Assembly (NCBI GenBank): GCA_021292105.1
Contig: CM037864.1
Span: 10,649,898 to 10,713,897, forward strand
DNA length: 64,000 bases
Reading direction: 5' to 3'
Source of the DNA: Anadara kagoshimensis
Taxonomy: Eukaryota > Mollusca > Bivalvia > Arcoida > Arcidae
Under the pieces are notes generated by a model, which did not search any database, was not told the DNA's origin, and saw only the letters and a list, made by a program, of their open reading frames with translations. Below are positions 19,901 through 64,000 of this stretch, piece after piece (within the stretch, counting starts at the first letter, position 1; each line of letters opens with the position of its first letter). The position numbers and the translations under genes are program-made.

Positions 19901-22900
19901 TTCATGTTTTTGCAGATAAATTATGTAAATGATTGTGTTTTTAAGTAGGATTTTTACTTTTCAATGTCTATCTCCACTGTTGTTTTAATTGAGAAAGTTT
20001 AATCAGTTAATTTTGTACATTTTGGAAAGTAAAATTAATAATTCCAGATCATTCATGATGAAAATATTTCATGCTTAAACAACTGTCATTTGCCGAAGGT
20101 CAACGGTTTTCTCCTGATACTTTGGAGTTGAGTGAGTAATGGTGTTTAACGTCCCAGTCAAGAATATTTCACTTATATCAAGACGTCACCATCTATAGGG
20201 GAAGGTGCAGAAATTTTGCCTGTGCATTGTGCTGATGGCATTATACAGCTGGGTTCTTTATGATGCCAAGCCTACCAAGACACGGGACGTCATTTAAGTT
20301 CCCATCCGAAAGTACCGCGACTTTCATTTCGCAATGCCGAGTGCTTGGCGAAGGAACAGTCACTACCAACTTTTAAGTCTCGGGTTAAACCCGGCCAGGG
20401 ATCGAACTCATGACCTCCCACTTACGTAATGAGCACTCTACCAACTGAGCTACCGCAGTTGTCCCCTGATACTTTGGTTTCTTCCATCATCCTGTAATTA
20501 ACCACATTCATATAACTGAAAGAATCTTGCCTGTTATGTAATATATCATATTTCTCTCCGATTATAAATCAATTTCTTCTGGTTTTAGTTTAACCGTCCA
20601 CCACCTTCGGTAAGTGTGAGATCATGTGTTCGAACCTTGACTGGGTCTGACCAAAGACTTGAAAGTGAGAAGTGACTGTACTTTCGCCAAGCACTCTGCA
20701 TTACTAAATGAAAGTCACTGTTCTTTCGGATGGGATCTTAAAATAAATGAGGTCTTGTGCCACAGTGGGCTTGGCATGATAAAGATTCCTGCTGTATAAT
20801 GCCATCAGCGCAATACACAGGCAAAATTTCTGCAACTTTGCCAATAACTGGCGACTTCTAGATATAAGTGAAATATTCTTGACTGGGGCGTTAAATGCCA
20901 TTACTCAACTCAACTCAACTCAACTCCGCCACCTTCGAATAACTTGTTCATTGTTTACTTTTAGGCAAAACAGGAAAGTTCACTGGTTCCTCAGGTTTAC
21001 AGATTGCTTACCTCAGTGGTCTAGAGAGTTCCACATCAGACGATACACACTTTTCTCAGAAAGAGTTATCTACCCTTACCATGCCTGCCTTATCAACCAA
21101 TGATTATCAGGGTGTAGACATACTGATGACATCACAGTGGTCAAGGGGAGTGGAGAAATATGGGGCACCTGTTGTAAGTAATTAATTAAGTTATGATTTC
21201 ATTATTATCTAGACGTCAATTGATCTTCATTTCCAACCCTACATATGTGTTATACAAAATAGGTGTAAAGTTTAAACTGTTTTCGTCAGCTCATCAAACA
21301 TCAGTTTTCCCATGATCAGAATATATAAAAAGTATGAAAAATTAAGATATTAAAACTACCAGCTGACTAGTGTTTATATTGAAGCATTGATTGGACTTAA
21401 AGTTGGTAAGAAGTATAAAATTTAATGAAGTAAATAAGTTACATGTACAATAGAAGTGGAAAACATCACAACAAATGGCTCTGTTAACAGGTTGAAGGAA
21501 CACCAGAATCTCATTAGTTGATACAAACAGCAGAATATCGTTGGTTGATTGGTCTTATAACAGTAATTATAACACTGTAATCTTATTGATCTTTAGCTGC
21601 AGAAGTTCAATGGTTGATTATTACCGGTACAGGAGAACCCAAAAGACTGATAACTCAAATAGCAGCAGAATCATAGTTTTTGGTAGATATGATATTTTTT
21701 AAAGCACTTGAGTCATTGTGCTCCATAGATAAGTCTAATTTTTTTAAACTTCATTATACTGATAGCAATTTTTTAATGTAATGTTGGACATTTTAAAATG
21801 CACATGTACATATTTCATAAAATACATATGGTAATTTAAAAATAAATTTAAAAATCTTAAAATTTTACTTTACAGGATGGATTTGATACAAGTATTGGAT
21901 CAGAAGCAATATCACAGTTAGCCATGATACTTCGTCCTAGGTACCACTTCTGTGGTCTTCAAGGGGTTTATTATGAAAGACAGCCTTACAGGTAAATTAC
22001 TTGATTTATTGAGATGAAATATTTCTGTGGAAAAGGAAATGTTGCTGCTATTGGGAAATGTCAAAAATGGTGATTTATACACCAGAAGTGATATCTTTGG
22101 TGGCATTATAAATATACACAAAGAATGTCCCATTCGTTTGATTTTTCAACATGTAAAATTCAACATTTTACTCTGTTCAGAGATATTCTATGGAAACTGC
22201 AGATGGGCATAACAAATTTCTGTTAGGACTAAAGGCTCAAATAAGTGAACAATTTCAAATTTTATTCAAGTTTAGTGGATTTTATGTGGAAAGTAAGCAT
22301 ATTTCACTGTCACAAACACAGTGATTCTGATAGTAATTAGTTTACATTTTGTGTTTCAGAAATCATAAAGTTTTGGCCGAGAAAGAACGACATGTAACCA
22401 GATTTCTTGCATTAGCAAATGTTGGCAACAAAGAAAAGAAAAAGGTACATTGAATTTACAATTTATTTTACTAGTATTTTATATTATTTAATCTTTGAAC
22501 TTTTTTTAGACCAGATTGATGTTTTACTTAAAAGAACAAGCATACTCAGCATTGTTGTTAAAACCTTAATTAAACATTACGCTGACTATAGGAGGTAGGC
22601 AAAGCATCTAATTTCATGCAGTTCTTGTTTTTGTTGTTATTGGAATTTTTTGGTTGCGAGTGGTTTGTGATTTGAATTTTACCAGTCTTTCAAGAATCAG
22701 CTTAAAGATCACACCTCTCTATGCTTAGGTTTGAATCCTACTCTGGCAGGTCTTAGAATGAGAATGTTTCTCAGCTCCCTTGCCAAAAGTTGATGCATGG
22801 TTTTCTCCAGGTACTCTTGTTTCCTCCAAGGGCTTCAGTAGCCGTGTGGTCTGAAGTGTGTACATACAGATCACAGCACCTCTCACCTCCTAGGTTTCAA

Positions 22901-25900
22901 CCTCACTCAGGACAGATCCTAGTGTGAGAAAGTTTGTCAGTTTGCTTGTCGGAGGTTGGCCTTTTTCTCTTGGCACTCTGATTTTATCCACCAATCATGA
23001 ACTGATTGTCTCAAGATAAGTGCAAATGTCTTTACTGGGGCATTAAACTCTATACTCCACTCCAGTTTCCTCCATCACTGCTGAACTGACTGGATACAAG
23101 TAAATAATCTGTGATGGGTTGTAAAAAAACAACTTTATTCTTATTATGTAACATTTTGTTTCAGTATCTGTATGCCTTTAATATTGTGCCTTTATCATCA
23201 ATGGACAGAGAGGAATTAACCAAACAGCCACAAGGGTGTACAGAATGTCCGTATAAAATTGATATGTCCGTGATCAAAGAAAAGGTAAGGGAGATAACTC
23301 TGGGGTGTACAGAATGTCCATATAAAGTAGACATGTAAGTGATCAAAGAAAAGGTAAGTAAGGGAGATAACTCTGGGGTGTACAGAATGTCCATATAAAG
23401 TAGACATGTCGGTGATCAAAGAAAAGGTAAGGGAGATAACTCTGGGGTGTACAGAATGTCCATATAAAGTAGATATATCAGTGATCAAAGAAAAGGTAAG
23501 GGAGATAACTCTGGGGTGTACAGAATGTCCATATAAAGTTGACATGTCCGTGATCAAAGAAAAGGTAAGGGAGATAACTCTGGGGTGTACAGAATGTCCA
23601 TATAAAGTTGACATGTCCGTGATCAAAGAAAAGGTAAGGGAGATAACTCTGGGGTGTACAGAATGTCCATATAAAGTTGACATGTCCGTGATCAAAGAAA
23701 AGGTAAGGGAGATAACTCTGGGGTGTTCAGAATGTCCATATAAAGTTGACATGTCCGTGATCAAAGAAAAGGTAAGGGAGATAACTCTGGGGTGTACAGA
23801 ATGTCCATATAAAGTTGACATGTCCGTGATCAAAGAAAAGGTAAGGGAGATAACTCTGGGGTGTACAGAATGTCCATACAAAGTAGATATATCAGTTATA
23901 AAAGAAAAGGTAAGGGAGATAACTCTGGGGTGTACAGAATGTCCATATAAAGTTGACATGTCCGTGATCAAAGAAAAGGTAAGGGAGATAACTCTGGGGT
24001 GTACAGAATGTCCATATAAAGTTGACATGTCCGTGATCAAAGAAAAGGTAAGGGAGATAACTCTGGGGTGTACAGAATGTCCATATAAAGTAGATATATC
24101 AGTGATCAAAGAAAAGGTAAGGGAGATAACTCTGGGGTGTACAGAATGTCCATATAAAGTAGATATATCAGTGATCAAAGAAAAGGTAAGGGAGATAACT
24201 CTGGGGTGTATAGAATGTCCATATAAAGTAGATATATCAGTTATAAAAGAAACGGTAAGCAGAGCTCTATCACCTTTTGTGAATGGAGCCAGGCTCCTTG
24301 AAATTGTGAAAATAAGCATAATCAAGACCAACATTGTGAAAAAAAGTGATAGGAAAATTTCAAAATACTGTTTTTAAAGCTACGTTTATAAAATAGTGAA
24401 AATTGGCATATTAATACTAAAAAACAAATATAAGATTTTGAATTGTGAATAGGGCAGAATATTGGCTCCAAAAATGTCCCAGACAGAGCCCTGGTAAGGG
24501 GATAACTCAGAGGTGTACAGAATGTTCATATAAAGTAGATATGTCAGTTCAGTTAAGTGACTTGTACTTTGAAGAAGAATTTTGTCTATACTAAAACTTT
24601 ACCTGCTCATCACAACTCAAAATGAGGATGATTAAAATGTTCAATAAATCTGTGCAAAAAGTATGTCATTTTGCTTGCTGAACATTGACGATTTTGGAAA
24701 CTCTGGTTTCCCCCACCATACCAGAACTTATCACCTTGATGTAAGTGAACTTAGCATCCTGTATTATTTTTAGTTTTAGCATTTTTAGTGACTAGCTATT
24801 GCCAAGTAATATTTTACAGCTACAAGCAACAGTCCTGATAACTTTGTTTGGTGAACAAGGAATATTCTGCTCAATTGCTTTTGATTATACTGTGAAAGAT
24901 GTGAATTAGACATTTCTTGTTTTGTACTTTGTTTGGTGAACAAGAAATATTCTGCTCAATTGCTTTTGATTATACTGTGAAAGATGTGAATTAGACATTT
25001 CTTGTTTTGAACTTTGTTTGATGAACAAGGAATATTCTGCTCAATTGCTTTTGATTATACTATGAAAGATGTGAATTAGACATTTCTTGTTTTGAACTTT
25101 GTTTGGTGAACAAGGAATATTCTGCTCAATTGCTTTTGATTATACTGTGAACTGTTTGGTGAACAAGGAATATTCTGCTCAATTGCTTTTGATTATACTA
25201 TGAAAGATGTGAATTAGACATTTCTTGTTTTGAACTTTGTTTGGTGAACAAGGAATATTCTGCTCAATTGCTTTTGATTATACTGTGAAAGATGTAAATT
25301 AGACATTTCTTTTTTGAATTTATAGGAAGAAACTAAAGCTCAATTTTTCTACGATATGAACTCAGGTAAAGGCTCAAAGAAAAGACAACATGAAGGAGAT
25401 GACATGAGAGCAAAGAAACAACACAGAAAACCCCGTAAGTATATAGTATATTTAATATAAATGTTCTTGAACTGTGTACTGTAATAAACTAGTAAACTAC
25501 AATGGTTGTTCACTTTCTTTTTATCCCTTGTGTTTCAAAGAGGGGGATATTAAATTGGAGTTTACATCCATCCTTCCCTACATCCAAAATTCTTATCGGA
25601 GCTAATTCTCCAGAACTATGAAGCACTATTTCACGAAATGTGGTGCATAGTACCAACATAGACAGAAGATGCACATATTGTTAACCCGAGTTGGTTTGCT
25701 TATTTTTCTTGGAAATTATAGCCCTTTGAACATAAGTGCAGATCACAAAAAAGAACCTGCTGGCAGGGGATCCTCATTCACTGAATTTGCTTGTTTAAGG
25801 GAATACTGAAGCAATTTAAGAGATATTTTTGTGTGCAAATGACATTAGTAAAGTCGTTTTACTGCCAGTGTTTTGCAGTCAAATTCTGATTGATTTGAGA

Positions 25901-28900
25901 CTAAGTCAAATGACACCACCAAACAAATATGCATTTTATGTTCCCAACAGTAACTTTTGTTCTCTGGCTTCATATGGCAGGAACTGATATCATATCCAGT
26001 TACTAGACTCAAGATTTTAGACAAAACTTACAGACACTATTATATTTCCTGTATATCAGGAAATTAAAAATTTTTGGTCTGATTTATATTACATATTATT
26101 TTTAATGTTTACAAATTTTATCATAATTTATCATTTTGGTTAATTCACATGAATTTAAATTATTGTAGATCTTATAGATAACCTTGAGCATTATGATTGT
26201 ATTTAATTTGATGATGGATTTATTGTAAATCAGCACTATTGCATCATTGTAAAAATTGCTGAAATTAGTACACTGATAAAATTAATATGTTTACAGTAGT
26301 AACCGCACCATTTCTATTTTTAGCACAACCTACAGGTCCATGTTGGTTTTGTTTGGGAAGTCCAGAAGTAGAGAAGCACCTCGTAACCAGTGTTGGAACA
26401 CAAGTTGGTTTTTTATTGTTTTTCGTCTTTACTCTTTGCATTACATATATTAATTTGTATACATTTGTGTTATAATTACTCCATTGGTTTTATTTAGTGA
26501 GAATATAACATGTAAATTATGTATGCAGTCAAACCTGTCTATAAAGGCCCCACAAGGAAACCAGTAAAAGTGGTCATTATTGGCAGGTGGCTCTTGTATA
26601 CAGGTACAAGTAACATGAATAGAGACCTATGGGGATACATTTTTACTGGCTTTTAAAAGTAGGTGGACTTGTATAGAGGTGGTCTTTAAGGCAGATTCAG
26701 CTGTATAAACCTCTGGTTCTGCCGCATATTTCAGTGAAATTTAACCATGAAAAAAATAAGAGGTGGGAGTGGGTGTGTTTGTGTGTGTTGCAATAATATG
26801 AAAATCCAGTGAGATTAAAATGTATAAACTATTAACAAATTAATTAATCATACTGAAAGATCAACTATAAGTACATTAATGTAAAACCTTGTTATAATGA
26901 TCATCTATGCCACCTCACAGCATAAACAAAGTTTTTAAAGTCAAAATTCATTTCTTCCAATGATTTTCTATGAACATGTACTAGTAAGTTTCTTTCTTCA
27001 TTTATTGTTAAACCTCTTTATGGTGCAAACACTTGATGGACAAATGAAGACGTTAAATCAATGTCTTATAGTATATCATATGCATTTTTATTGTATGATA
27101 GCCCCAAAAGTCGTACAGTTAACCCATGTAATAAAAATCATATTAAACACATGCAATATCGCTCATGTTTCCTTGGTTAATTGCATCATATGATTGCTGT
27201 AACATTGCTTGTTCTGTTGTAGATGTTAAAGCTCGTTTTTATATACAAAATGTTTTCTTGCATTTTACAATAAACAGAATCTTACATTCTAGTTTATGTA
27301 ATAATGCATTTATTATGAACACAAGGCTTGTTGCATAAAATTTTATTCAGCCAATATTACATAATCACTCTTGTAAGATCATCCTAAATATTACGAGTTT
27401 ATGTTATTTTCAGACATATTTAGCCCTAGCTAAAGGAGGGTTAGTAGATGACCATGTACTCATATTACCTATTGGTCATTATCAGTCCACGGTCACGGCA
27501 CCAAGTGAAGTTCTAGAAGAGATTGACCAGTATCCTTTTTATCAAGTTATTTGTACAAAGTGTAAAAAAGTTAGTGACATACTTAGTAGGGATGCTTGGC
27601 TAATTGGTTCAAGTCACAGACTCATGATTCCAGTCATGGGTTCAAGCCACTGTGTTAATTCCTTGCAATGGAATAATACCGTCCTCTGTCAGGTTGCACC
27701 AGTGATCACTAAAACTGGGATAAGCACTTGCCATATCACCCTGTAGGCTCGGCACAGACTTTAATTTTTAGGTCATATACAATACTGCTAGGTGCTGTCA
27801 AGGACAAATGTTCTCTACATGAAATAGTATTAAAGTGGTTATTCAACAAATTAATAACTGCATGTGATAGGTTGGGGCTCAAACACTGGCAAGCTTCTGA
27901 CCGAGACCTGAAAATAGATAGTGACTTTTTTTTGCCAAGCACTCGGCATTTAAAAATGAAAGTCACTAGGCCCTTTGAAAGAGACATTAAAAACCAATTT
28001 TCCATGTAAAGCAGGCGAGGCACATTATGGAACCCTCCCTGCACAATGTCATGAGCTCATTGCAAATCCACTTCACCTATTGCTGGTGATGTTTCGATAT
28101 ACACCGAATATGCTTGACTAAGAAGTAGGAGCCTTATTACTGCTGTATTCAATAGACCATTATATTATGGATACCAGAAATCCATTGAATTTGTGATGTA
28201 TAGAAATTAACAAATTAATGCACCTTTGATCAATAAGATATTTATAACAGGCTCTATATGTTAATTCAAATTGAGCTGTTAAATCCGTGAAATGTTGTTT
28301 CTTATAAACACTTATATTCCTTATGCGTAATCAGATACAAGTCAAGTTTAAAGAAATATTACAAATCACGAGGTAAAGCTGTGGTATTTTTTGAGAGGAA
28401 TTATAAAACACAACATCTACAAATACAGGTAAAACACATATGAAACAGATTAAAAGCAAGATATTTTTTCAAATACAGATAAAAACAAAGTGTTGTCAAT
28501 TGTAAACATGTGCTTGCCAGTTGTCAAGAGATTTGTGATGCAATCTAGCCCCAGAGTGCCCAATATGCTATTGCTGCCTAAGTCCCAAAATGTTTGATTG
28601 AATAAAAAGCATGTGACATATAACACACATAATTAAGCACATGTGTCTGGATTTAAGTGAGCAATTTCTGCAAACTGCAAATTTCAATGTTTCATAAACA
28701 AAAAAAAACATTTAACATAAGCATAGTAGAGTTCAGAATGTATAGAAATCAAATCACCATGACATCATCATCATTTCTTTTTCAGGCTGTACCAATTCCA
28801 CAAGATTGTGTACAAGAGGTAAAAGAGACATTTATGGAAGCTGCAGAATCAGAATCTTTTGAACTTCATGAAATACCAAAACATTCGGACATTAAACAGG

Positions 28901-37939: not shown

Positions 37940-39904
37940 TTATTGTTTCTTTGGTTTTGGCTGTTCTTGTCTATATTTTAAGGCTTCAACTTCTCTGTCA
38001 AAGAATGCCATATCTGTATCTCCAGATGCACCATATGTTCTCTTTTGGTTATGATATTGTTGTTTAGAAGAACCTGGGAAATAAAAAAAAATTTAAGTTT
38101 GATGATGATCAAGGGAGATAACTACAGACATGAGTGAGTGAGGAGTGAGTGAATAATGGTGTTAAACGTCCCAGTGACATATTTCACTTATATCGAGATG
38201 TCGCCAGCTATTGGTGAAGGTGCAGAAATTTTGCCTGTGCATTGCACTAATGCATTATACAGCAGAGTTCTTTAGCATGCCAAATTCACCGTGACACAGG
38301 ACCTCGTTTATTTTAAATTCCCAGCCGAAAGAAACCTGACTTTCATTTCATAATGCCGCGTGTCTGGCGAAAGAACAGTTACAACCCACTTTCAAGTCTT
38401 GGATCAGACCCGGCCTGGGATCGAACCCACGACCTCCCACTTACGGGGCAAGCACTCTACCAACTGAGCTACTGCAGTGGTAATTACAGACATGAAATAG
38501 ATATGGTGACTTCCAAAACTGTGAAAGATGTTCTGTTTTGGTTATGATATTGTTGTTTAGAAGAGCCTGGAGAATAAGAACAATTTAAGTATGATGGTGA
38601 TCAAGGGAGATAACTACAGACAGATGAAATAGATCTGGTGACTTCCAAAACTGTGAAAGGTGTTCTGTTTTGGTTATGATATTGTTGTTTAGAGTGATTA
38701 CAGGGATGAAGCTTAACTATTTTGAAGGGCCCAGTTCACTTCAGAAAAGAAGCTGTAATAGTAATAAATAGCTAATATGTGTAAACATTAAGGGGCCCAA
38801 ACTGAATTTTAGTAGCCATGGGCTACTGGGCCCCCACTAATTTTCATCCCTCAGACCTGGTGAAAAGAGCTGGGGTGCAATTCATGGACTGAGGCAACCA
38901 AAGTAGCAACAAACAGAGGCAAATGAAGAGAACTTGTAAAGGGCCTGGTTTTCCTTGCGGAGAAACAGAAATAAGTCTTTGTTGTTTAGAAGGACCAAAA
39001 AATGAGAACAATGTTAATCACTGGATTAAAGATTATGTTAATAATTAATCAATGACAAAATGACTGTTATTTCTCCCTTTTAGATTTAATTGATCTAATT
39101 TAATTAAAAATAATGATTTTAATATCATTTGGGTTTAGATTTCTGTCTAAACTGCAAAACAGGAATAAATTCTATCATTTTAGTCATCTTTTTATACAAA
39201 GCATAAACTGTATCAGATGTTTACTTCTTCAGTCAATTTTCTAGGCGAGTAAGTAATGGTAGATATATTGGTATGTGAATTAGGTAAAGATCAAGGGAGA
39301 TAACTACAGACAAGAAATGGATCTGGTGACTTTCAAAACTGAAAGATTAGGTGTTAAAATATTATGAGGCATTACATTACATGGTCCCTTCAGAAAAATC
39401 AGAATAAAATTCAGTAATGGGGTGGAGTATACTCCAACTAATCAATGCCAAGCTACATTTCAGACTATGTGTTTTCGGATGGCACATTGTCCATCATGTA
39501 GCTTACCCTCAATTTCAGACTTTTAATTAGTTGGAGTACATGGAAGTAATGTAGTTTAACACCCAAGTCAGAAATATTTCACGTAATCAGTTCAGGCCTA
39601 GTACCCATAGAAATCCACCAACTTTCAACAAGCAAACTGATCATTCTCTAACATTTGGATCAATGGGGTTCTAACCTAAGTGGTGAGTGGCACTGTGATG
39701 TGTAACTGTGAGCTTTAGACCACTAAATCACAGCTACCCCCAGAATCAAATTTGAATTTTATTTTTTAATTCTTCATATAATAGTTGTGTCTTAATGGTT
39801 TATACAATCAAACAAGCTCAAAAAAGGACCTGAATCACTAACCTAACTCTACTTTTTTTTCTTTAAAGTATCTAAATGATTTTATATATATATATATATA
39901 TATA

Positions 39905-42019: not shown

Positions 42020-45000
42020 ATGGCGGAACAGGTTGGAAAACATGTGAAGTGGTAGTAAATAAACTACCACGAGCAATATTTAAACAACTCTTTTAATGAA
42101 ATAAAGCTGTAGATTGGCTAAACTGAAACTACAATGAATGAGCCCCATAAGCATGTCCTTATGATTTCATTTTAATTATTATACTCGCTTCAAACAACAG
42201 TTTAACTTGTTAGGTAAAAGGAGGGGGGGGCAGGAAACTATAACTAAAGTACTGGACAGGGCCTTGAGGCATCATTGCACTACATCTTGGTCTATGTATT
42301 ATGTATGCATACTTACACAAGCACTGAAAAACTAAATGAAATAAATTATGTTTCAAATTGGTTAAATTATTGTCTTGTTAGGTGTGTCCATCAACTGTAT
42401 TCAAAATATTTTTGGGGCAGGGGAACATGGGTTCCATGTCGAAGTTCCTTACCTTACTCTACATCATTCATTGTGGAGAAAGCTTAGCCATGTTGAAGTT
42501 AGTTACCTTATTTATACCCATATACCATTCCTCATTGGGCTATTCCATTTTACTGTTTAATTAATGTCCGGCGTAGCACATGTTTTTCAGGCTATTAGAT
42601 GTATTTTGTAGTAATAAATGAGCACCAAGGTACATATCATCTCGGTCAAAGCTTTTTAAAATCCTTTCGGGGGTTTACAATGCATTGAGAAGACATGAAG
42701 TTTAAAACACATGGCTCAGGCGAATTGAACTGCGCATGTACGGTGATTCCATTTTTTCACACTGGTAAGATCGTCTGACTAAAGGGAGACTACCAAAACA
42801 AAAAACAGTAGCTGTAAACAAACAATTCTAGGAGTTGTTCTTGTTAAAGCGATCATACCCACGATGAATGGGCAAATCCAAGATAAACTTGCCAATACCC
42901 GGATGATTGCAACTTCTGTTTGTCTGTTCCAATAGGAAATAATGGTAAATCCCCTGAAGGATTTTAAAAAGCTTTGCATTTTATTTTCTGACTGAGATGG
43001 TCTTGGTGTTCATTTATTACGACAAAATGCATACGTAGCAACGGTATATGACATGATAGAAATTTTATTGATTTTCATATCTAAAAGTTTGAAAAACATG
43101 CTACGCAGGACATGAATTAAACAGTAGTCATTACTGATAATAAGTAGAAACGATCATCTGTGTAGGGAAGGGGGTAAAAGCCAGTGCACACATCTTGTAC
43201 CAGGGATTCATCAAGGGCCTATTTAGGGCCGAAATTGGGCCCGATTCCCAATGAAAAAAATGTTGACTTTTTCCCAAAATTGGCAGAGAAAATTCCCAAT
43301 TAGAAAATTGTGTTGTTTTTAAACGAAATTGAAAGTAAATTTTGCGAAACCTCCCAAATCACCAAAATCAAGTAAAAGATTCTAAATTATTTTACAACAA
43401 AATCTGCAAAGGAAGATGAAGATACTGCTTCTACATCAAAGGCTTCCGAGGTCGTGAGTAAACCGACTTCTGACATGATGTCGAAGTTTTCTCAAAATGA
43501 GCAAAAAGTTGATAGTTTTTCCCAATTTTTAGTTCAGGGCCTTTTCCCAAAAGACCCTGATAAATCCCTGTGTACATGTAGCATTAATTCCAGGGTTAAA
43601 TTTCTTTTCTAAAATACAGTAGCCATTTAAACTTCAAACCATGAAAAGAACATTTTCTGTCTAAATAAGGCGATGGAAGGCCCACACATTCTATTTGTTT
43701 CTTAGTGGAGTTTATCCCATTGTTTCCTTTGATTCAGAGGCCACGTCGGATAAGACGTCAGTCTTCAAATCCAGGGTCCCTCATCGCTGCGAGTTCGAGC
43801 CCCGATCAGGCACATGTGAAAAAGTGAATTTCTCTTGATGTTTGGCCTTTACTGGTTCACCTGGTATCAGTATAATGTGACTGAGGGATTGGCTTGTTTG
43901 TCACATACTGACTGAGCAAGCACGTTAAAGTCGCCCTGAGTGTACGTTAGTACAAGGCAGACCATATAACACACTCACACTTCACATGCGTACATGAATT
44001 TGTTCATAGATTAAACCATATAGATTAATAAAAAAAATAGTTTTTGTCACCAATAGCTGAAAAATTGCTGATGTGATGTAAGCAACATCCAACCAACCTT
44101 AGAATTAAATGTCAAGACTACATAACATCCACCTTAATCTGTTGATATACTACACTATTTAAGATAAATGAAATAAGAGTAAAGGATATTATTAAGAATA
44201 TTATGTTGTTATTTTTCAGACTGAAAGGTCATTCCAGAAACAGCCTACTGTATTCTTAAACAAGAAAGAAAATCTCCTTTCCACAAAAGGGAAGAAAAAT
44301 CTGAGACACTTCAGAAATGTTGGTCTAGGTTTCAAAACCCCAAGAGAGGTAGGTAGCTACAAGGAAAATTGTGTTACTGATGGAATGTGAAGGCCAAAAA
44401 AATCGTATCTGTGTAAGGTCGCTTGTCATTTGTTTTGTACCTTGCATAACGTGCATACTGTCAATTTTTTGAGTCTTGGCAATTTAGTTTAAGGTCCACT
44501 TGAATTTTTGTCTGGACAAAATTGTGTAAGCACTGATTGTACACAGGGTTTTGATACCACTAATTGTTTTGTAGCTGCAAATGATGTTTTAATCACGATG
44601 GTCTACTGACATCCTTTGATGAAATGCCTAAAGGCACTTGTCTGATGCAGCAATTGAAGTATCGCCGACCATGCCTTTTATGTTGCGACACTGGCCGCCA
44701 TCAAGGTACCAAAGCAGTGTCATGGCAACTAATGACGTACTAGTGTCAGTGACGTCATTAAATGGCACAATTCAGGCTGAGTTTTTATTCACTGTGTGTA
44801 AATAAAGCATGACTGGCATTTGTTGATACATTGTGGGCGTGGCCAGCGATCCATCAATTATACTTAGTGCGAGAAATGAAAGCATGTTGTAACACTTTAT
44901 TAGTCTTATTGTGTTCTAATATGAAAAAAGTTGGCATGAAATCGCTATTGTCTGCATATATAACATTCCAGATAAACAAAGACCTGGGAATTTGGGATTT

Positions 45001-47232
45001 GCTTTAGTCAAGTTACATTCAAAATAAAATTATGACATGGATTAATGAATAATGATGGATGGCCTATTCATGCAGGGTTTTATCAAGGGCCTATTTAGGG
45101 CCGAAATTCGGCCCCATTCCCAATGGAAAAACATTGATTTTTTCCCAAAATGGACTGAGAAAATTCCCAATTAGAAAATACACTTAAGAGATCATGATTC
45201 AATAACTCCATAATTTCACATAATAGCAAGTATTTCAGAAAGCGCGTCAAGACGGAGGATGGAAAATCAAGCAAAAAGTGAGTAAACCGACTTCTGACAT
45301 AGAGATTGAAAGTAAACCGGAAAAATGTGATGACAAACTCGAACATCAAGTTAAATTAAACACTGATAAACACTTAGTGGCAGAAAACGATTATTCATTT
45401 CTAAATGGCACCAAATATGATGTCAAAGTTTTCCCAAAATGAGCAAAAAGTTGAGTTTTTCCCAATTTTCAGTTTAAGGCCTTTTCCCAAAGGACCCTGA
45501 TAAATCCCTGTCATGTCCAACTCCAAGACTATATAAATTATAAATTAGATAATTGGCACAAAGTTTTAAAGTATTTTCAAGCAGTCTGAGATTAGAAAAC
45601 ATACATGCATGCATACAAAAAAATTCCCTTGCTATTGATTTGACAAGCATCTGTGTGTGAAGTATGGCATTTCTTTTGATCTCCCAAGTGTTTTAAATCC
45701 AATTTTGTAAAGTGTTTTTATTTAAGAACACACCGACCCAAGTGATTACAGAGTGCTTGTAACATTTTAAAGAATAGATAGTAAGACAAGAACTTTATTT
45801 TTATAACAAAAAATGAGAAATCTTTTTTCCAAAAATAAGGGGAATTTAAAAAAAAAAGTTCAATATTTTTCAAAAGGTATTTTACATACAGATTTCCTGT
45901 TACGACTAGGTACAAGTAAGTGAAAAATATGATCTTTATTACTTTGAAGATTATGTGCTTTGATTTTCTAAAATCAAGATTTTTTCACTGTCGCAAACAG
46001 AGGGATTCCAACAGTAACATATATATACTTATTTAAATCAAAATCCTAAAATTAATTGATGTGGTAAACAAAAGTAATAAGGAACACCTAAGCTGCAAAT
46101 GATGTTTTTATCACGATGGTCTACTGACATAATAATGGTGAAATGCCTAAAGGCAATTGGCTGATGCAGCTTTGTTTTTAGCTTGATTCAGCTTTTTTAG
46201 ATTATTAGAGTCTAATACTCATCCTGTATTGCGTTAAAAAAAAGTTGGAAGAAATAGCTAATTATTTGTACTTGTAGCGTGGTTTAATGCATTGACATAT
46301 AAATTATGATTCTGTCATTTAAAACATATATAAAACTAAACTATATAAAAGATGATTAAGTTATTAAGGCCTTTTAAAAAATTGTTTGGTTCGGGTCACC
46401 CGACCTTACCTGCAAATTTCGCCCGACCCTGATGTTTTTTTCGTTGTCTGACCCGTTCCGGATTGAGAAACATTTGGTCTATCTGTAGAATCTGTAAAAC
46501 TTTTTGAGGGCCTTGATAAGCCTAGGCTTGCAATATCCTTGTGTCAACAATTTATTTGGAAGCAGCTTGCTTTTTGTATAAGATATATATATATATACAT
46601 GTATATATATATAACCTACCTACCCTACCTAGATTTTTTTTTTACGTTACCAGAACCAAACAAATTTTTTTAGGCCTAAAACATCCACAATAGCAACTTT
46701 GCTGATCAGGGCCTTGTCAGTCAAGTGGCTTATGGATCACAGCACCTCTCACTGCCTCGTTCAGGGAAATCTCATTGTGAAACCTTGTTCAGTTCTTTTG
46801 CCAACGATTGAGGTTTTCCTCTGGGTATGCAGGTTTCTTTCACCATCCAAGAACTTGTCACCTTGATATAAGTGAAAAAAAATCTGATTGGGATGTTAAA
46901 CACCATTGAGGTTTTTCTAAATTCTTTCATCCATTTGACATCAAGCATTTCAATGTATCAAAGTAAAGGTTTAGCTGCATATGATGTTTTTATCACGATG
47001 GTCTACTGACATAATAATGGTGAAATGCCTAAAGGCAATTATCTGATGCAGCCTTCATGTTTAAAAAAGACTTCTGACAATGTCTGCAATACAGAGATAC
47101 TTAACCTGGTTAAGTTTTGTGGCCACTACAAAAATTCAGATTTTTTTCATAAACCCCACTCTCATGCCTGTAATAAGCATTATTAACATTAACATTTCAA
47201 TAAACATGTCTGGTAGGGCAAATAAAAGTTTT

Positions 47233-47293
<61 letters not shown>

Positions 47294-50200
47294 TTAAGGG
47301 ATGAAGATTAGCAGGGGGCCAGTTGCTCATGGCCACTAAAATTCAGTCTGGGCCCCTTAATGTTTACACATTGTAGCTATTTATTACTATTACAACTTTT
47401 ATGCAATGAGCTGGGCCCCTAACTCAAAATAGTTAAGCTTCATCCCTGTCTGATACATGTATATATAATAAAAAAGTATGTATATATATTTGATGGGAAA
47501 GGATAAATCTAAATGAAGACGCACTATAGGAATTAAATAGGTTTGAATCTTGTGCTTCAACAGATTGATTGATTGAATGAAGTTTTATGTTTCATTTATG
47601 TTTCAGTCAAGAATATTTGATTGATAATGAGACATCACCAGCTATAAGTGAGGTGACAAATTTTTACCTTTAATTTGAACAGTCTGGGTATGTTTGCTGC
47701 AGATGATGTTTTTATCACGATGGTCTACTGACATAATAATGGTGAAATGCCTAAAGGCAATTTTCTGATGCAGCTACCAGTGTTCATTATATGATTTTTA
47801 CTCATGAAAAGAGTGGAATGGAATAATGATTATTTTATGCCCCAGTGAAGATTGTTTAAGTTGCTTCGTTTGGGATGGTAGAGGAAAATGAGTGCCCAGA
47901 GAAAAATTCATATCTTTCTCAAAAGAGCATAAAAAGATAAAAATTACATGAAGGAGAAAAACATTTTCCTTAATTTAAAAGTTTTAATTGAACACTTGAA
48001 AAGTATTGGCTCAAATAAACTTATTTGAACATGAAAAATTTACAACAAAAATCGAATGAAAAATACATAGTAGAAATAGGATAAATTACAATAATTAAAT
48101 TTAGAAAATTTACCAAAATATTTGGGAAGATTATAGGTTTTGAACTAAACAAGAGTTCATTTTCAGCCCCAAACTATGCAGATTGACAAGTTTTTGATGC
48201 CATTAGGCATTGATTTTGTTAGGGTGAATGGATGAATAAAGCTACACATGATGTTATATCTGACACTGTCTACTTACAAATACAATGGGGATAATGCCAT
48301 ATGGCTGTTTACTGATGTAGCTTACTTCAATCCTTTTATGTACTACTACAGTAGATCAGTTGGTTGAATGTTCACTCTGTTAGGGAAGGGGGTTGGAACA
48401 AATTCACTATTGGAACAAGTACTTTCTTGATAGGTCTGCCCAAATTTGAATATAGGTAGGGGCTGCTCTTTTGTCAATCACTCTGTTAAATGAAAGTCAC
48501 GGGCTACCAATGTCTGGTGTCACAGTAGGTATGACACCCTAAAGAACCCTCTGTGTGCATTCCCCTGAGTGAAAGGCAATGGTAAAAATTTCTGTGGCAT
48601 GACATCTCAATATAATTAAAAAAAATTGATTGAATTGTATGTAAAATTCCTTTTAATTATTCGACCTTTTTTATGTGGAATTTTTTTTTAACAATTAATG
48701 AAATAACCACTCTACTTTGCTCATGATATTGAAGAAAATAATTCTCAATTGATGGAGACATTGGTATGGAATTTAACTGTAAACCGAGTAGAAATGACAA
48801 GTGGCTAAATCGCTAGCAAAAACTATCCATTGGAACAAATTCACTGTTGGAACAAGTACTCTACAAATTAAACTACGTAATACCATTTAGACACTTCTGT
48901 TAGAGGTGAATAAAGCTACACATGATGTTATATCTGACACTGTCTTCTTACAAATACAATGGGGATAATGCCATATGGCAGTTTACTGATGTAGCTTACT
49001 TCACTCTGTTTTATGTACCACAGTTAGTAGGGTGTTAACTCTGTATGCTGGAGACCAGGATTCAAATTTTGACTGTTTCTGACCAAGATTGAAAATAGGT
49101 ACTCACCAAGTACAGAAATCCTTGGGACTAGACCTAAAAAAACTAAAGTCCCATTTAACAGTAGGCATTGCACAAAAAAAACTCCCTGTACATCGCCCTG
49201 AAAAAGGTAAACGTTTCTGTCACATGACATCTTGGTATAAGCAAAATATTCTTCACTTGGACCTAAATCTTCATTTATAAAGTCAATCTTATTTCATGTG
49301 GAATGTTTTTTAAGATGAACTTGGATGGATTTTACTGTGTTTGATTCTTATTAGTAATTTGTATTTTTCAGGCTATGGAGGGACATTACATTGATAAGAA
49401 ATGTCCATTCACAGGAAACATTAGCATCAGAGGTCGTATTTTGACCGGAACCGTTATGAAGATGAAGATGCAGAGGACCATCGTTATCCGTAGAGATTAC
49501 CTCCACTACGTTAGAAAGTACAACAGATTTGAAAAGAGGCATAAAAATATGTCCGTTCATCTTAGTCCTTGCTTCAGGTGATTGTATGATTTATCTCCCT
49601 TGGGTCTTACACACAATAAGGACAGATAGAATTTTAAAATGTGTCTGAAAATCTTATAGAGTGGCCTAAGATCTGAAAATTTCAATAGTTCAGAACAGAG
49701 AATTTACAAAATATTACAGAACAAACTGAAAGAATCCTGGCTACAGATAGTTAATTATACCAGAAATTTACTTTCAACTATTGCATGAATGGAATAGTAT
49801 GTTGTCCTGTACTTACCAGGGCACTTGGTGACCGGGTTGTCTAGAGTGACTGCTTAAGCTAATTATCACCTCTGACAGCCTAGATTTTAACCCTGCTCTG
49901 GCAGATCCTTAGTGTGAGAAAGTTTGTCAGTTTACTTGTCAAAGGTCGTTGGATTTCTCTGGACACTCAAACTTTCTCCACCATTCCAGACCTATACACC
50001 TCAATACAAGTGAACTTATTTTGTCTGGGGTGTAATGCACCATTGCTAGACTCCACTCCTTTAATAACTCAAACTTATTCACTTTATTGTGTTGAAGTGA
50101 ATCTATTTCCTTTATATTTTCTTTGATGAGTCTCTCTCGATAAACCCCAAACTTCTTTTTGAAGCCAAAATTTGTCTGAAGAAATGGTGGCAAAGGATCA

Positions 50201-50459
50201 AGGTTTTTTTACTGTATATTTGTATTGAAACTATTGTTTCTGAAGCATCGCTAAATGAATGTTCTTTTATTACAGCGAGTTATTTTGAGAAAATATCTTG
50301 TTCTCTCACGTTTCAAATGTTTTATGTTTTGGCAGGGATGTACAACTTGGTGATATTGTGACAGTTGGAGAATGTCGTCCACTCAGCAAGACAGTACGTT
50401 ACAACACTCTAAAAGTGATGAAGGCTGGTGGCGCAAAGAAGTCATTCTCTAAATTCTAA
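42020..50459 (+). CDS. RPS11: 40S ribosomal protein S11 (uS17), 4 exons
   Basis: Component of the small ribosomal subunit (uS17 family, rRNA-binding OB-fold). Exons: 42020-42031, 44220-44348, 49372-49577, 50336-50459. They total 471 nt: 156 residues and stop, against 158 in human. Recognition is near certain from [50 protein letters not shown] and [17 protein letters not shown]. The tiny first exon encodes MAEQ and joins [12 protein letters not shown], as in fly and human. Its donor is the unusual GTTGGA; a second in-frame donor 12 nt downstream (GTGAAG) would add VGKH. Intron 2 (5 kb) hosts six box C/D snoRNAs, matching the human arrangement in which RPS11 hosts SNORD35B. No AATAAA is obvious just after the stop. 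Confidence 0.95.
43201..43570. mobile_element. hAT5-like MITE, copy 1, with 5-bp TSD
   Basis: The left end CAGGGATTCATCAAGGGCCT mirrors the right end 'gaccctgataaatccctg'. TGTAC flanks both sides (43196-43200, 43571-43575). CAGGG-type ends with a 5-bp target duplication suggest a hAT5-like element. 370 bp, without an intact frame. Lies in RPS11 intron 1. Confidence 0.8.
43733..44100 (+). mobile_element. tRNA-derived SINE, family B
   Basis: Second copy of the family at 19,044-19,430: head 'gtcggataagacgtcagtct', B box 'gcgagttcgagccccga', body 'ggttcacctggtatcagtat', tail 'gatgtaagcaacatccaacc'. Ends about 120 bp before RPS11 exon 2. Confidence 0.75.
44574..44651 (+). ncRNA. SNORD35: Box C/D snoRNA, SNORD35-like, copy 1
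   Basis: 78-nt unit closed by the perfect stem GCTGCA/TGCAGC. Box C is ATGATGT (581-587), D' is CTGA (606-609), C' is TTGATGA, D is CTGA (642-645). The sequence before D', ATCACGATGGTCTA, matches the U35 guide and is complementary to the 28S rRNA segment UAGACCGUCGUGA, allowing one G-U pair. By the box+5 rule it points to the C of UAGAC, the site 2'-O-methylated by human U35. Lies in RPS11 intron 2. Confidence 0.88.
44652..44859. mobile_element. Palindromic MITE with AATT ends, copy 1
   Basis: The left end AATTGAAGTATCGCCGACCA is mirrored by the right end 'tggccagcgatccatcaatt', about 31 bp of imperfect inverted repeat. The 208-bp body has 'gccgccatcaaggtaccaaa' and 'gtcagtgacgtcattaaatg', shared with a reversed copy at 61,538-61,729. 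It begins at the very base after the snoRNA stem. Confidence 0.75.
45073..45510. mobile_element. hAT5-like MITE, copy 2, with 5-bp TSD
   Basis: Same ends as the copy at 43,201 (CAGGGTTTTATCAAGGGCCT and 'gaccctgataaatccctg'). TCATG flanks both sides (45068-45072, 45511-45515). 438 bp; the inner part differs in length from copy 1. Lies in RPS11 intron 2. Confidence 0.8.
46092..46170 (+). ncRNA. SNORD35: Box C/D snoRNA, SNORD35-like, copy 2
   Basis: 79 nt with stem GCTGCA/TGCAGC, box C ATGATGT, D' CTGA, C' region 'aatggtgaaat' and D CTGA. The guide TATCACGATGGTCTA before D' is identical to copies 3 and 4. The C' box is weaker than in copy 1. The flanks are unrelated to those of copy 1, so only the snoRNA body is conserved. 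Confidence 0.88.
46974..47052 (+). ncRNA. SNORD35: Box C/D snoRNA, SNORD35-like, copy 3
   Basis: 79 nt, same plan and guide as copy 2; differs in the first loop base after the stem (GCTGCAT) and near box D ('gcaattatCTGA'). The conserved guide despite changes elsewhere suggests selection on function. Confidence 0.88.
47234..47290. repeat. (CT)n microsatellite
   Basis: About 57 bp of CT dinucleotides in RPS11 intron 2, between snoRNA copies 3 and 4. Confidence 0.92.
47696..47774 (+). ncRNA. SNORD35: Box C/D snoRNA, SNORD35-like, copy 4
   Basis: 79 nt, stem GCTGCA/TGCAGC, box C GATGATGT, guide TATCACGATGGTCTA, D' CTGA, D TCTGA. This copy has the best C box (GATGATG). It lies in RPS11 intron 2, about 640 bp downstream of copy 3. 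Confidence 0.88.
48241..48321 (+). ncRNA. Box C/D snoRNA, diverged type, copy 5
   Basis: 81 nt closed by GCTACA/TGTAGC. Box C is ATGATGT and D is CTGA; C' is GATAATG. The internal words TTATATCTGACACTGTCTA and 'aatgccatatggctgttta' still echo SNORD35 (human U35 has a similar AATGCCAATGGC block), but the 28S guide before D' is lost and D' reads CTTA or an earlier CTGA. The target is unknown. Probably an old duplicate with a new or no target. Confidence 0.75.
48915..48995 (+). ncRNA. Box C/D snoRNA, diverged type, copy 6
   Basis: 81 nt, almost identical to copy 5 (few substitutions, for example 'gtcttctta' for 'gtctactta' and 'tggcagttta' for 'tggctgttta'). The stem and boxes are kept. The flanking 'aacaaattcactgttggaac' also occurs before copy 5's downstream SINE, so a larger block was duplicated. 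Confidence 0.75.
49830..50065 (+). mobile_element. SINE family C copy
   Basis: Family-C order: 'ttggtgaccgggttgtctag' (tRNA-like head), 'cctagattttaaccctgctc', 'agtttgtcagtttacttgtc', 'ctccaccattccagacctat', 'ccattgctagactccactcc'. Lies in RPS11 intron 3. Confidence 0.6.
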
Positions 50460-51170: not shown

Positions 51171-51492
51171 TGAGAGTGAGTAATGGTGTTTTACGTCTCA
51201 GTCAAGACGTCGCCAGCTATAGGCGGCGAAGGTGCATAAATTTTGCCTGTGCGTTGCGCTAATGGCATTATACAGCAGGGTTCTTTAGCGTGCCAAGCCC
51301 ACCATGACACTGGACCTCGTTTACTAGTATTTTAGTTCCCATCCGAAAGAACCGCGATTTCATGCCAAGTGCTAGGCGAAAAAACAGTCTCTACACACTT
51401 TCAAGTCTTGGATCAGACCCGGCCGGGGATCGAACCCAAGACCTCCCACTTACGAAGCGAGCACTCTACCAACTGAGCTACCGCATTGGTTA
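51171..51492 (-). mobile_element. tRNA-derived SINE, family A, with 13-bp TSD
   Basis: Reverse full copy from 'tgagagtgagtaatggtgtt' to 'ctaccaactgagctaccgca'. The exact direct repeat TATATTGCTAAAG flanks it at 51158-51170 and 51493-51505. Confidence 0.88.
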
Positions 51493-61800: not shown

Positions 61801-63514
61801 ATTGGTCAACATCTTAAAACATTTTGGTTTCACAATTTTGGTCCAAGAACTACTGATGAGAAATTGTATTCCAAAGCGGCAGTTTAGTGCTGTAAAATTA
61901 GCAATGGTATAATATGTAATTAAAAAACAAACATACTAATCCATGTCCGAATCACAATCCAGAAGCAAAGTAAAAACTCCTGTACTGACAAGATAGGGAA
62001 GTGAGGCCGGGTGCTCCAGAAAGCTACATGCAATCATGACTAGTGACACAGAAATTTTGAAACAAACAATATGAAAAAGTACACCTCCCAAAAATCCCCA
62101 AAACTTCATTTAGGGAATTCACATGATACATGCATTCTTATTTTTTACATAAGAAAGTATATTATAAAACATTAAACAGACCATAGGCATAAACCCGCTT
62201 CACTATTTAACAAGTGCTTGATTTTCTATGATAAGATGGATATTAGAAAAGTGGGGTTTTCTCGAATAAAGGATGGCACATGGAGAGAAAAAACTCACAA
62301 ACTTCATTAGTGAATTGATGCGTTTTCTGCATGTTTGCAGAATTACTGTTTATCTCGTTAATAATTGTTTTCAGGGCTCATTACCATCATTTGTTTAGTC
62401 AAGCTTTTGTTGATGTTATAAAGGGTTTTGAAAGACTAGCACACTTACCTTAGTAAACATGGGGTAACGTTTTCAATCTTTTTGTGGGTCTTTAATGCAA
62501 TGATTTACTTTACTTGGTAATGGAGTTCATAATCGGCCCTCGTGATACCCATATACTTTTTGCAGATCTTACACTTCCATTGTATATGGAATCACTTGAG
62601 CTATTCTGAGAATTTGCTATATGAACGTTTTCCGTAGTACATTGGCGAATCCAATAGGACAAACATAAAATGTTTTGTGGATAGTTGCTAGTTATTATTC
62701 ACACATCACAGCATAATGCATAGGATTCAATATTAGATATTGACAGAAGTTAGGACTTAAATAATTATTAAATTATCCTTGGCCTTTTACAGTCAATATG
62801 CTATAAAATGTCTACAATTAAATTGTTTTCTTTTCTTTACTGTAGGAATTTTCCTGATGGTAATGTTTACACGCCATTCATATGTATTAAAGTTCAGGAA
62901 GAGAAACAAGGTGGAGAATTGGGAATATGAGTTAGCGAATTATTACCAAATAAATATTGTAAAACAAGGTCATAAGATAGAAACAGACAACCTTACATTA
63001 GATAGTATATCAATCAATTCTGACAAGTCGCAATTTTTATCCCAGTTTGACAGAGAAGTTGTTCGAAGTTTAAAAATGTTTTACAACAATTTTGGTGACG
63101 TCATGACAATATGTGTTCCTGCCTTGGTAACCTTATTGCTTGGGCCAATTCTGATGTCTTTTTATTTTAGTATCCGTGAATGGTTCTGGTCACTGGAAAA
63201 ATATCCAGTTCTTCCGAATATAAACCAATGTGTTTCGTGTTTCTTAACGCCTGCGGGGCTAGTTTACGCCATTTCGTTTGGATTTGCTTTCCAGCAGGCG
63301 TTAACGAAACAAAATGAAATCTTGATAAAAATGACAGAAGAAATAAGCAAACTAGATCAAGCAGCGACATTAGCTACTAAAATAAAGCTAGAATCTAACG
63401 TATCAAGGATGAGTATACTAAGAGCAATAAAATCAGAGGCTATCTACATGATTTGTCAAATACAGAAGAAAAAGACAGCATCATTTAAATATAGACCAGA
63501 TAGAGATGTTACAG
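58865..63514 (+). CDS. Unidentified multi-pass membrane protein, 5' exons only
   Basis: Two exons, 58865-58985 and 62846-63514, joined VV|GIF in phase 1. The second ends at the donor ACAG|GTGAGT, so the gene runs past the right edge. The 263 residues seen begin MATNLTIITGNSLNNDT, with two N-glycosylation sequons (NLT, NDT) before membrane segment 1 (about 26-48). Segment 2 is about 126-149 (VPALVTLLLGPILMSFYF) and segment 3 about 172-191 (GLVYAISFGFAFQQAL). A long polar helix follows (KQNEILIKMTEEISKLDQAA). The ATG has a good context (GAAATGG). The GxxYAISFGFAFQQA-then-helix pattern is loosely like DUF4239/bestrophin-like proteins; I hold that only as a weak idea. It could be a channel or sensor, but no function is claimed. 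Confidence 0.8.
59150..59310 (-). mobile_element. SINE family C copy
   Basis: Reverse copy: 'ctagaatggtggaggaattt', 'ttaggatctgtcccagtggg', 'gattcgaatctaggcatcga' (B-box-like) and 'acttggccaccgagactccg' (head). In intron 1 of the membrane-protein gene. Confidence 0.6.
59335..59505 (-). repeat. Interspersed repeat, family D, reversed
   Basis: Reads 'gctaaacaggaagtgcttaa', 'cctggcctcacttcttggtt', 'gaagttcacgtgtttaactt' and 'tttggacgtggattgatacg', the reverse complement of the family-D order. Confidence 0.65.
60280..61175 (+). repeat. Tandem array of about 150-200-bp units in intron 1
   Basis: Four to five diverged units share 'gacctaattttcatggttaa', 'cttcatgaatttttgtcgtg', 'tttttatttaacacttgtga' and 'gattgtaaatactagtataa'. 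Spacing of the 'ttttcatggttaactga' block is about 195, 215 and 135 bp, so units vary in length. Confidence 0.8.
61538..61729. mobile_element. Palindromic MITE with AATT ends, copy 2 (reversed)
   Basis: Starts AATTGACGGATCGCCGGCCA and ends 'gaccggcggtacgtcaatt'. The body reads as the reverse complement of the copy at 44,652-44,859, including 'ggtaccgtgatggcggccag' and 'taatgacgtcattgacacta'. Both carry a TGACGTCA motif. Confidence 0.75.
61925..62040 (+). repeat. Interspersed repeat, family D, short
   Basis: Has 'acatactaatccatgtccga', 'atcacaatccagaagcaaag' and 'gaagtgaggccgggtgctcc', without the usual tail. Confidence 0.55.
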
Positions 63515-64000
63515 GTGAGTGAGCAAGGCCCATTTTGCCTACTAAAACAATTATCTCTCAGCATATTCAAGATCAAAAGAATAAAAACCATTTTAGCAAT
63601 TTTTTAAAATTTCCTTTTTAGCTGGAAGTTCATGTTTTGAATTGAAGTGTTTTGTTACTGATTTGTTCAGTTGTACACGTTCTGTTGTTTAGGTTTTTGT
63701 ACCGGTTTTTTTGAATTATTTAGACATTTTGGTTTGCCTTCTTCATGAAGCACAAAAAATTCATGAATTAAACTTACCTAATTTTTTAAAGAATATGGCT
63801 GTAATATAATTAATTATGAAGAAAACAATTATCATATGACAGATTTTTCGCTAGGCTGATTTTCTTGATTTTATTTGCCATGATATGACAACAATGTCCA
63901 GAACTTGAAACCAACTGTAGACAATTCACTTGCACTGACGACATTCAAACCTCGATTAAGTAACAATTTCACATAAATTTTCATGTTCAACATTTGAATT

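Follow-up and report, generated by a model that had tools for sequence, protein, structure and literature searches.

An RPS11 intron of Anadara kagoshimensis carries six box C/D snoRNA units, four of them SNORD35

Results and discussion

RPS11 and its cluster-bearing intron

The stretch of DNA analysed here (64,000 nt, hereafter the window) contains a gene for RPS11, identified by tblastn and by the Pfam domains Ribosomal_S17_N and Ribosomal_S17, and one of the introns of this gene hosts six units of the box C/D snoRNA type, all read from the + strand. An earlier note on this DNA had reported six such units between 44574 and 48995, and both ends proved exact. With at least two snoRNAs in a single spliced intron, delimited by coding exons and splice signals, the locus is an intronic snoRNA cluster. 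Its features are as follows.

44220..44348, + strand: RPS11 coding exon 5' of the cluster, TERSFQ...FKTPRE (translation, tblastn, Pfam)
44349..49371, + strand: RPS11 intron of 5023 nt, GT...AG, all six units inside (coding exons and splice signals)
44574..44651, + strand: unit 1, SNORD35 (Rfam 45.8 bits, motif scan)
46092..46170, + strand: unit 2, SNORD35 (Rfam 44.2 bits, motif scan)
46974..47052, + strand: unit 3, SNORD35 (Rfam 41.4 bits, motif scan)
47696..47774, + strand: unit 4, SNORD35 (Rfam 42.6 bits, motif scan)
48241..48321, + strand: unit 5, diverged C/D unit, type B (Rfam 27.3 bits, motif scan, alignment)
48915..48995, + strand: unit 6, diverged C/D unit, type B (Rfam 28.6 bits, motif scan, alignment)
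49372..49577, + strand: RPS11 coding exon 3' of the cluster, ...SPCF (tblastn; 3' splice site before it, 5' splice site after it)
50336..50459, + strand: final RPS11 coding exon, ending in the stop codon (tblastn, boundary letters)

Unit 1 begins 225 nt from the 5' splice site and unit 6 ends 376 nt from the 3' splice site, with spacers of 1440, 803, 643, 466, and 593 nt between consecutive units. The intron had been labelled intron 2; a 3' splice site before 44220 does imply an exon further upstream, but the search for exon 1 upstream of the 44220 exon did not find it, and the number itself is inferred.

Box architecture and family assignment

Box C/D snoRNAs are stable RNAs of 70–90 nt bound by fibrillarin, NOP56, NOP58, and SNU13. 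All six units show the corresponding signature of a box C near the 5' end, a CUGA box D near the 3' end, and a terminal stem. In unit 1, for example, box C lies at 44581–44587, the D' guide at 44593–44605, the D' box at 44606–44609, and box D at 44642–44645. Box C reads AUGAUGU rather than RUGAUGA, as it also does in the SNORD35 model. A motif scan of both strands of the 64 kb (box C [AG]TGATG[AT], CTGA 48–114 nt downstream, terminal stem ≥6 bp) returned the same six units and no others, and found no match in ten mononucleotide shuffles of the + strand, the only strand shuffled. Together with the alignment of the units, these empty shuffles led us to reject an origin by chance or from simple repeats.

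Membership of SNORD35 was decided by the gathering score of Rfam RF00211 (36 bits), which units 1–4 exceed (41.4–45.8 bits). Units 5 and 6 fall below it and were rejected as members, although the alignment shows them to be relatives. The description of four near-identical and two diverged units was correct: compared with unit 2 over 83 nt, unit 3 is 95% and unit 4 is 93% identical, with unit 1 somewhat more divergent. SNORD35 identity holds for units 1–4 by Rfam and is not supported for units 5 and 6, which have lost the 28S guide and are not further SNORD35 guides; where a D' box would stand, unit 5 has CTTA. Both type B units nevertheless retain their terminal stem and boxes C and D.

The terminal stem differs between the unit types by one G-C to A-U double change, which is all the covariation there is in it, and since 18 of the 500 control (a) shuffles reached the pooled score, the support is weak. 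An inner GCC-GGC hairpin is also retained, without covariation. Folding z-scores were −2.3, −2.6, −3.9, and −2.3 for units 1–4, and −0.2 and −1.6 for units 5 and 6.

A shared guide for 28S rRNA

The D' guide of units 1–4 forms a 13-bp duplex with UAGACCGUCGUGA, a conserved site in 28S, consisting of 12 Watson-Crick pairs and one G-U pair with TAGACCGTCGTGA, and none of 60 shuffled guides paired equally well with 28S. The C of UAGAC, named beforehand as the target, is indeed the fifth base from the D' box in this pairing. From the genome itself, one 28S fragment of ~85 nt was used; the other guide tests used rRNA of other eukaryotes. For the D guides, tested against the rRNA of other eukaryotes, 19, 13, 19, and 3 of 60 shuffles paired as well as units 1, 2, 3, and 4, respectively; the low value of unit 4 was set aside because this guide varies from unit to unit. 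The UAGAC site was absent from the best pairings of the D' guides of units 5 and 6, whose best rRNA pairing was matched by 12 and 8 of 60 shuffles, and their D guides were matched by 19 and 16 of 60 on the rRNA of other eukaryotes.

A second RPS11 locus and conservation of the units

We found a second RPS11 locus, a paralogue or a retained haplotype, 623 kb away on the same contig and beyond the window. Its corresponding intron carries seven units, four of them SNORD35 and three diverged; lying where it does, this locus was missed by the earlier note and is new in the present analysis. A chain of blocks of at least 500 bp, bounded on the left by the end of the sequence compared, covers 136 kb on the window side with 59 blocks and 94.6 kb aligned at a mean identity of 91.6%.

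Between the loci, units 1–4 differ at 2 of 315 sites (0.6%) and the remaining aligned intron at 218 of 3432 (6.4%; one-sided Fisher P 5.6e-7). Taken singly, units 1, 2, 3, and 4 show 0/78, 2/79, 0/79, and 0/79 differences (binomial P 0.006, 0.12, 0.006, and 0.006). Unit 2 is thus not significant alone, and both of its differences lie immediately 5' of box D. For units 5 and 6, constraint is not significant (5/162 differences, P 0.055), and unit 6 has the most differences of any unit (3/81). Identical stretches also occur outside the units, the longest (232 nt) spanning the surroundings of unit 3, and 7% of all 79-nt windows of the intron are identical between the loci. When the unit positions were slid jointly along the intron, conservation was equal or better at 11 of 5019 offsets for all six units, at 14 of 5019 for units 1–4, and at 370 of 5019 for units 5 and 6. 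The comparison of the two loci suggests that the four SNORD35 units have been kept for use.

Searching the genome for SNORD35 outside the two RPS11 loci gave no match among the best 59 of 17859 candidates scored. As a test of haplotype against paralogue, other snoRNA families gave mixed results: SNORD18 has one place with two matches (best 60 of 230717 candidates scored) and SNORD36 likewise one place with two matches (best 70 of 380153), but SNORD14 has six matches on one contig, in two triplets that almost mirror each other, and a seventh on C3.

Origin, processing, and possible function of the copies

The most likely reading is that units 1–4 provide the same methylation guide redundantly and that several of them mature from one intron. 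More fully, we put a probability of about 0.7 on units 1–4 being working, redundant SNORD35 guides, several matured per RPS11 transcript, with units 5 and 6 orphan or decaying. The RPS11 pre-mRNA would then be the source of these SNORD35-family snoRNAs. The core C/D proteins would bind boxes C and D of each unit, closed by its terminal stem of 6–8 bp; snoRNPs would form on the nascent intron, the spacers would be cut, and exonucleases would trim the pieces to each protected unit. The D' guide is predicted to position fibrillarin for 2'-O-methylation of 28S rRNA at the C of UAGAC (human Cm4506). The copies probably multiplied within the intron, at a time so distant that their flanks have since grown unalike, and we propose that units 1–4 were kept because dose matters. 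The sequence features, the host, the guide pairing, and the joint conservation of units 1–4 between two loci are observed; expression, processing route, methylation, and dose role are what we infer.

The identity of the units could instead reflect recent copying or gene conversion, most copies being non-functional passengers. The close likeness of units 2–4, the location of both RPS11 loci on one contig, and the identical stretches beyond the units fit such a history. However, the flanks of units 1–4, compared without gaps, resemble one another at chance level, which makes recent copying of the units together with their flanks unlikely, and the rest of the intron has diverged between the loci far more than the units have. 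Units 1, 3, and 4 each have private bases ahead of box C and of box D that do not differ between the loci, and unit identity is therefore not simple homogenisation. We consider passenger copies improbable. Recent spread by a unit-carrying element was rejected, as units 1–4 share nothing past their edges in ungapped 20-nt bins and neither unit type turned up outside the two clusters, either among the best 59 of 17859 candidates scored or with exact patterns.

The route of maturation could also differ from that in the preferred reading. If the excised intron is trimmed from its ends only, the product would be a long RNA capped by units 1 and 6 (a sno-lncRNA) with the inner units as by-products, or at most the outer units would mature. 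Introns with two snoRNAs give sno-lncRNAs by such a route, according to the part of PMC11028025 consulted, and no shared internal cleavage signal was found in the two introns: a search for an RNase III-type spacer hairpin common to both (30 mononucleotide shuffles per window) gave none, with z ≤ −4 in 3 of 197 windows of one intron and 0 of 230 of the other. Yet the inner units 2–4 differ by only 2, 0, and 0 sites between the loci, and it is the outer unit 6 that differs most, so we regard this route as unlikely. Division of the region by hidden non-coding exons, each unit lying in its own small intron, is less probable still; the spacers would have room for them and certain spacer stretches are identical between the loci, but the background conservation is patchy. 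The suggestion in the earlier note that only one snoRNA may be made per transcript is also argued against by the joint conservation of units 1–4, with unit 2 alone not being significant.

Units 5 and 6 appear to be two copies of one diverged relative; although they lack the 28S guide, they still look capable of forming snoRNPs, and they are most likely orphan or decaying. There is a small chance that they and their three relatives at the second locus make up a new guide with another target, or cap the ends of an intron RNA that bears several snoRNPs, in which case the intron would yield four rRNA guides and, besides these, a product with a role of its own.

Comparison with known snoRNA clusters

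The SNORD35 RNA and its RPS11 host have long been known, and the unusual part is the number in one intron. In the part of PMC8393311 consulted, human SNORD35A/RPL13A and SNORD35B/RPS11 are given for 28S-Cm4506, which bears out the proposed conservation of RPS11 as the SNORD35B host. One snoRNA per intron, invoked previously as the rule, is the predominant arrangement, but not an absolute one: the portions consulted of PMC2780460 and PMC11028025 describe clusters, first in rice and next in Drosophila (PMC2780460), and name intronic snoRNA clusters as a class (PMC11028025). The principle is not new, since it is known from rice and Drosophila. Among the matches listed in the open-licence literature, none described SNORD35 units clustered in the RPS11 intron of an invertebrate. 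With four jointly conserved guide copies in one ribosomal-protein intron and a seven-unit sister locus, the rule of one snoRNA per intron can be put to a natural test in animals. Such a test would reveal if one intron can give rise to many mature C/D snoRNAs in animal cells, and if the dose of a single rRNA methylation is tuned by the number of copies.

The rice and Drosophila clusters resemble the present one in having several snoRNAs per intron (PMC2780460, PMC11028025, as far as consulted), but the title of a cited paper mentions H/ACA clusters for Drosophila, whereas the units here are C/D. The sno-lncRNAs likewise derive from an intron with more than one snoRNA and end in two of them (PMC11028025, same portion), unlike the six units here with their conserved inner members. 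The closest counterparts are human SNORD35B/RPS11 and SNORD35A/RPL13A, which share the Rfam family, the D' guide core, and the 28S target Cm4506 (PMC8393311, part consulted). The guide CACGAUGGUCU of units 1–4 is also present in the Rfam SNORD35 consensus, and with SNORD35B the host gene, RPS11, is shared as well. In contrast to both human genes, the RPS11 intron described here combines four copies of the family and two diverged units.

Six box C/D units in one RPS11 intron

The cluster in the RPS11 intron is real and represents a known guide in a known host gene; what is unusual is the number of units and the presence of the cluster twice in the genome assembly. The earlier note had placed six box C/D units, four of them SNORD35-like, at 44574-48995, and both statements are borne out. 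Four units score 41.4-45.8 bits against the Rfam SNORD35 cut-off of 36 bits, and a scan for boxes C and D plus a terminal stem (6 bp or more), independent of the SNORD35 model, returned units 1-6 and no others on both strands of the 64 kb. The + strand, mononucleotide-shuffled ten times, yielded no unit.

Box C/D units and their host intron (window positions)
44349-49371, +, RPS11 intron with all six units, 5023 nt
44574-44651, +, unit 1, SNORD35, Rfam 45.8 bits
46092-46170, +, unit 2, SNORD35, Rfam 44.2 bits
46974-47052, +, unit 3, SNORD35, Rfam 41.4 bits
47696-47774, +, unit 4, SNORD35, Rfam 42.6 bits
48241-48321, +, unit 5, type B (diverged), 27.3 bits, under the cut-off
48915-48995, +, unit 6, type B (diverged), 28.6 bits, under the cut-off

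RPS11 was correctly named as the host: the exons flanking the cluster encode it (Pfam Ribosomal_S17_N and Ribosomal_S17), and the downstream exon is 88.6% identical over 70 residues to human RPS11. Exon 1 was not found, and the label "intron 2" is therefore presumptive. The 5' splice site lies 225 nt upstream of unit 1 and the 3' splice site 376 nt downstream of unit 6, and the successive spacers measure 1440, 803, 643, 466 and 593 nt.

Guide and predicted rRNA target

Directly 5' of the D' box, all eight SNORD35 (type-A) units of the two RPS11 loci carry UCACGAUGGUCUA, whose pairing with 28S UAGACCGUCGUGA comprises 12 Watson-Crick pairs and one G-U and sets the C of UAGAC against the fifth base from the D' box. 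Of 60 shuffled guides, none paired equally well with the rRNA set. The pairing agrees with the methylation target predicted earlier from sequence. A second guide next to box D of units 1-4 is unlikely, as the bases there vary among units. The only exact match to the target stretch in the organism's own genome lies within a 28S fragment of ~85 nt, so that this fragment, and not rDNA, is the part of the organism's 28S that was read. The genome collection contains the stretch exactly in 13 contigs as well, and Rfam found eukaryotic LSU rRNA in all six of these that were scanned.

Units 5 and 6 still have both boxes (C and D) and an 8-bp terminal stem; in this stem one G-C pair is replaced by A-U through substitutions on both sides. 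Their D' guide is altered, CUUA stands where the D' box would be, and between 8 and 19 of 60 shuffles equal their best rRNA pairings. The two share a 105-nt block (95% identity) consisting of the unit plus 8 and 16 nt of flank, beyond which the ungapped flanks are alike at chance level; comparison of their surroundings gave two further repeated stretches, whose copies lie 437 and 625 nt apart.

A second RPS11 locus and conservation between the copies

In the genome (1.115 Gb, 36 contigs), a search at E ≤ 0.001 gave one further RPS11 locus, which shares a contig with the first and lies 623 kb downstream of it. Its corresponding intron (5827 nt) holds four SNORD35 and three type-B units. Genome-wide, at least eight SNORD35 units exceed the cut-off (59 of 17859 candidates scored) and the type-B pattern has five exact matches, all within the two RPS11 clusters. 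When all 13 units were used to build a model, it recovered them by construction and, over 313 kb of the two regions, had no further match with an E of 1 or less. The surroundings are collinear (G000:C8:11231538-11393645 aligned with window coordinates -32202 to 104000), covering 136 kb of the window side in 59 blocks of at least 500 bp. These blocks align over 94.6 kb at a mean identity of 91.6%, and the copies are separated by numerous insertions and deletions. The doubled region is therefore a large segmental duplication or, alternatively, a second haplotype that was retained.

Where the two introns align in collinear blocks, 2 of 315 aligned sites in units 1-4 differ between loci, compared with 218 of 3432 (6.4%) in the remaining aligned sequence (one-sided Fisher P 5.6e-7). 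Units 1 (0/78), 3 and 4 (0/79 each) have a binomial P of 0.006; unit 2 (2/79, P 0.12) is not significant alone, so the case for units 1-4 is a joint one. Units 5 (2/81, P 0.11) and 6 (3/81, P 0.24) together give 5/162 (P 0.055); their orthology is uncertain, since the loci do not have the same number of copies. The two internal RPS11 exons encode the same peptide at both loci, their 333 nt differing by 4 silent changes. In a weaker control, in which the unit positions were moved together along the intron (5019 offsets), the 7 differences observed over all six units were reached at 11 offsets, while 14 were as good for units 1-4 and 370 for units 5-6; six randomly drawn windows reached 7 differences in 0.0001 of 200000 draws. 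Regardless of units, 7% of 79-nt intron windows are identical between loci, and unit 3 sits inside an identical run of 232 nt. Within the window, units 2-4 are 93-95% identical, unlike their flanks, and the flanks of units 1-4 match at chance level (ungapped 20-nt bins). Together with the inter-locus conservation, this sequence comparison speaks for units 1-4 being old duplicates that were kept.

Other features of the window and genome

A repeat of ~300-340 bp, whose window copies are 79-89% identical to those of the second locus, is probably a tRNA-derived SINE, as one copy (51202-51489) includes a tRNA-Thr-like gene. The ~85-nt 28S piece (match G000:C5:36583885-36583920, -) stands alone in AT-rich DNA, with no Rfam rRNA match at gathering score in the surrounding 1.6 kb, and is probably a dispersed rRNA fragment. 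The 13 contigs with the exact target stretch, which is of eukaryotic 28S type, are labelled as bacterial MAGs, with full-model eukaryotic LSU rRNA in three of the six scanned; this is contamination of genome bins.

Further features (window positions)
4467-4803, 10353-10667, 12376-12714, 20125-20459, 20611-20921, 38143-38482, 51202-51489, copies of the ~300-340 bp repeat
51415-51487, -, tRNA-Thr-like gene
23234-24259, 69-bp tandem repeat, 14.8 copies, 95% matches, one frame open for >330 codons on each strand; a related array is present at the second RPS11 locus
27339-27743, open frame, CwfJ C-terminal domain match, 42.3 bits (cut-off 21)
62761-63519, open frame, sub-threshold bestrophin-like match, 20.9 bits (cut-off 32)

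Among other snoRNA families of this genome, SNORD18 and SNORD36 each have at least two hits, 1.2 and 2.3 kb apart, respectively. SNORD14 has one copy on C3 and two groups of three copies on C11, in opposite orientation (G000:C11:7518575-7520875, +, and 10437621-10439917, -), whose nearly mirrored spacing (1292, 909 vs. 899, 1298) is perhaps that of another duplicated host region. For these families the hits were compared by genome position, irrespective of intron boundaries, and they give no gauge of how common one-intron clustering is here.

Processing and comparison with known systems

Intronic snoRNAs are usually released by debranching and exonuclease trimming, and two in one intron can yield sno-lncRNAs (PMC11028025). 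The same paper supports the earlier note in that one snoRNA per intron is the predominant rule, but the rule is not absolute. Since the inner units vary between loci as little as unit 1, several units probably mature from each transcript, which would need cuts within the spacers; no hairpin marking such cuts is common to the introns of both RPS11 loci. Several snoRNAs per intron match the intronic clusters reported first in rice and later in Drosophila (PMC2780460), and units 1-4 have both family and host gene in common with human SNORD35 in RPS11, which PMC8393311 assigns to 28S-Cm4506.
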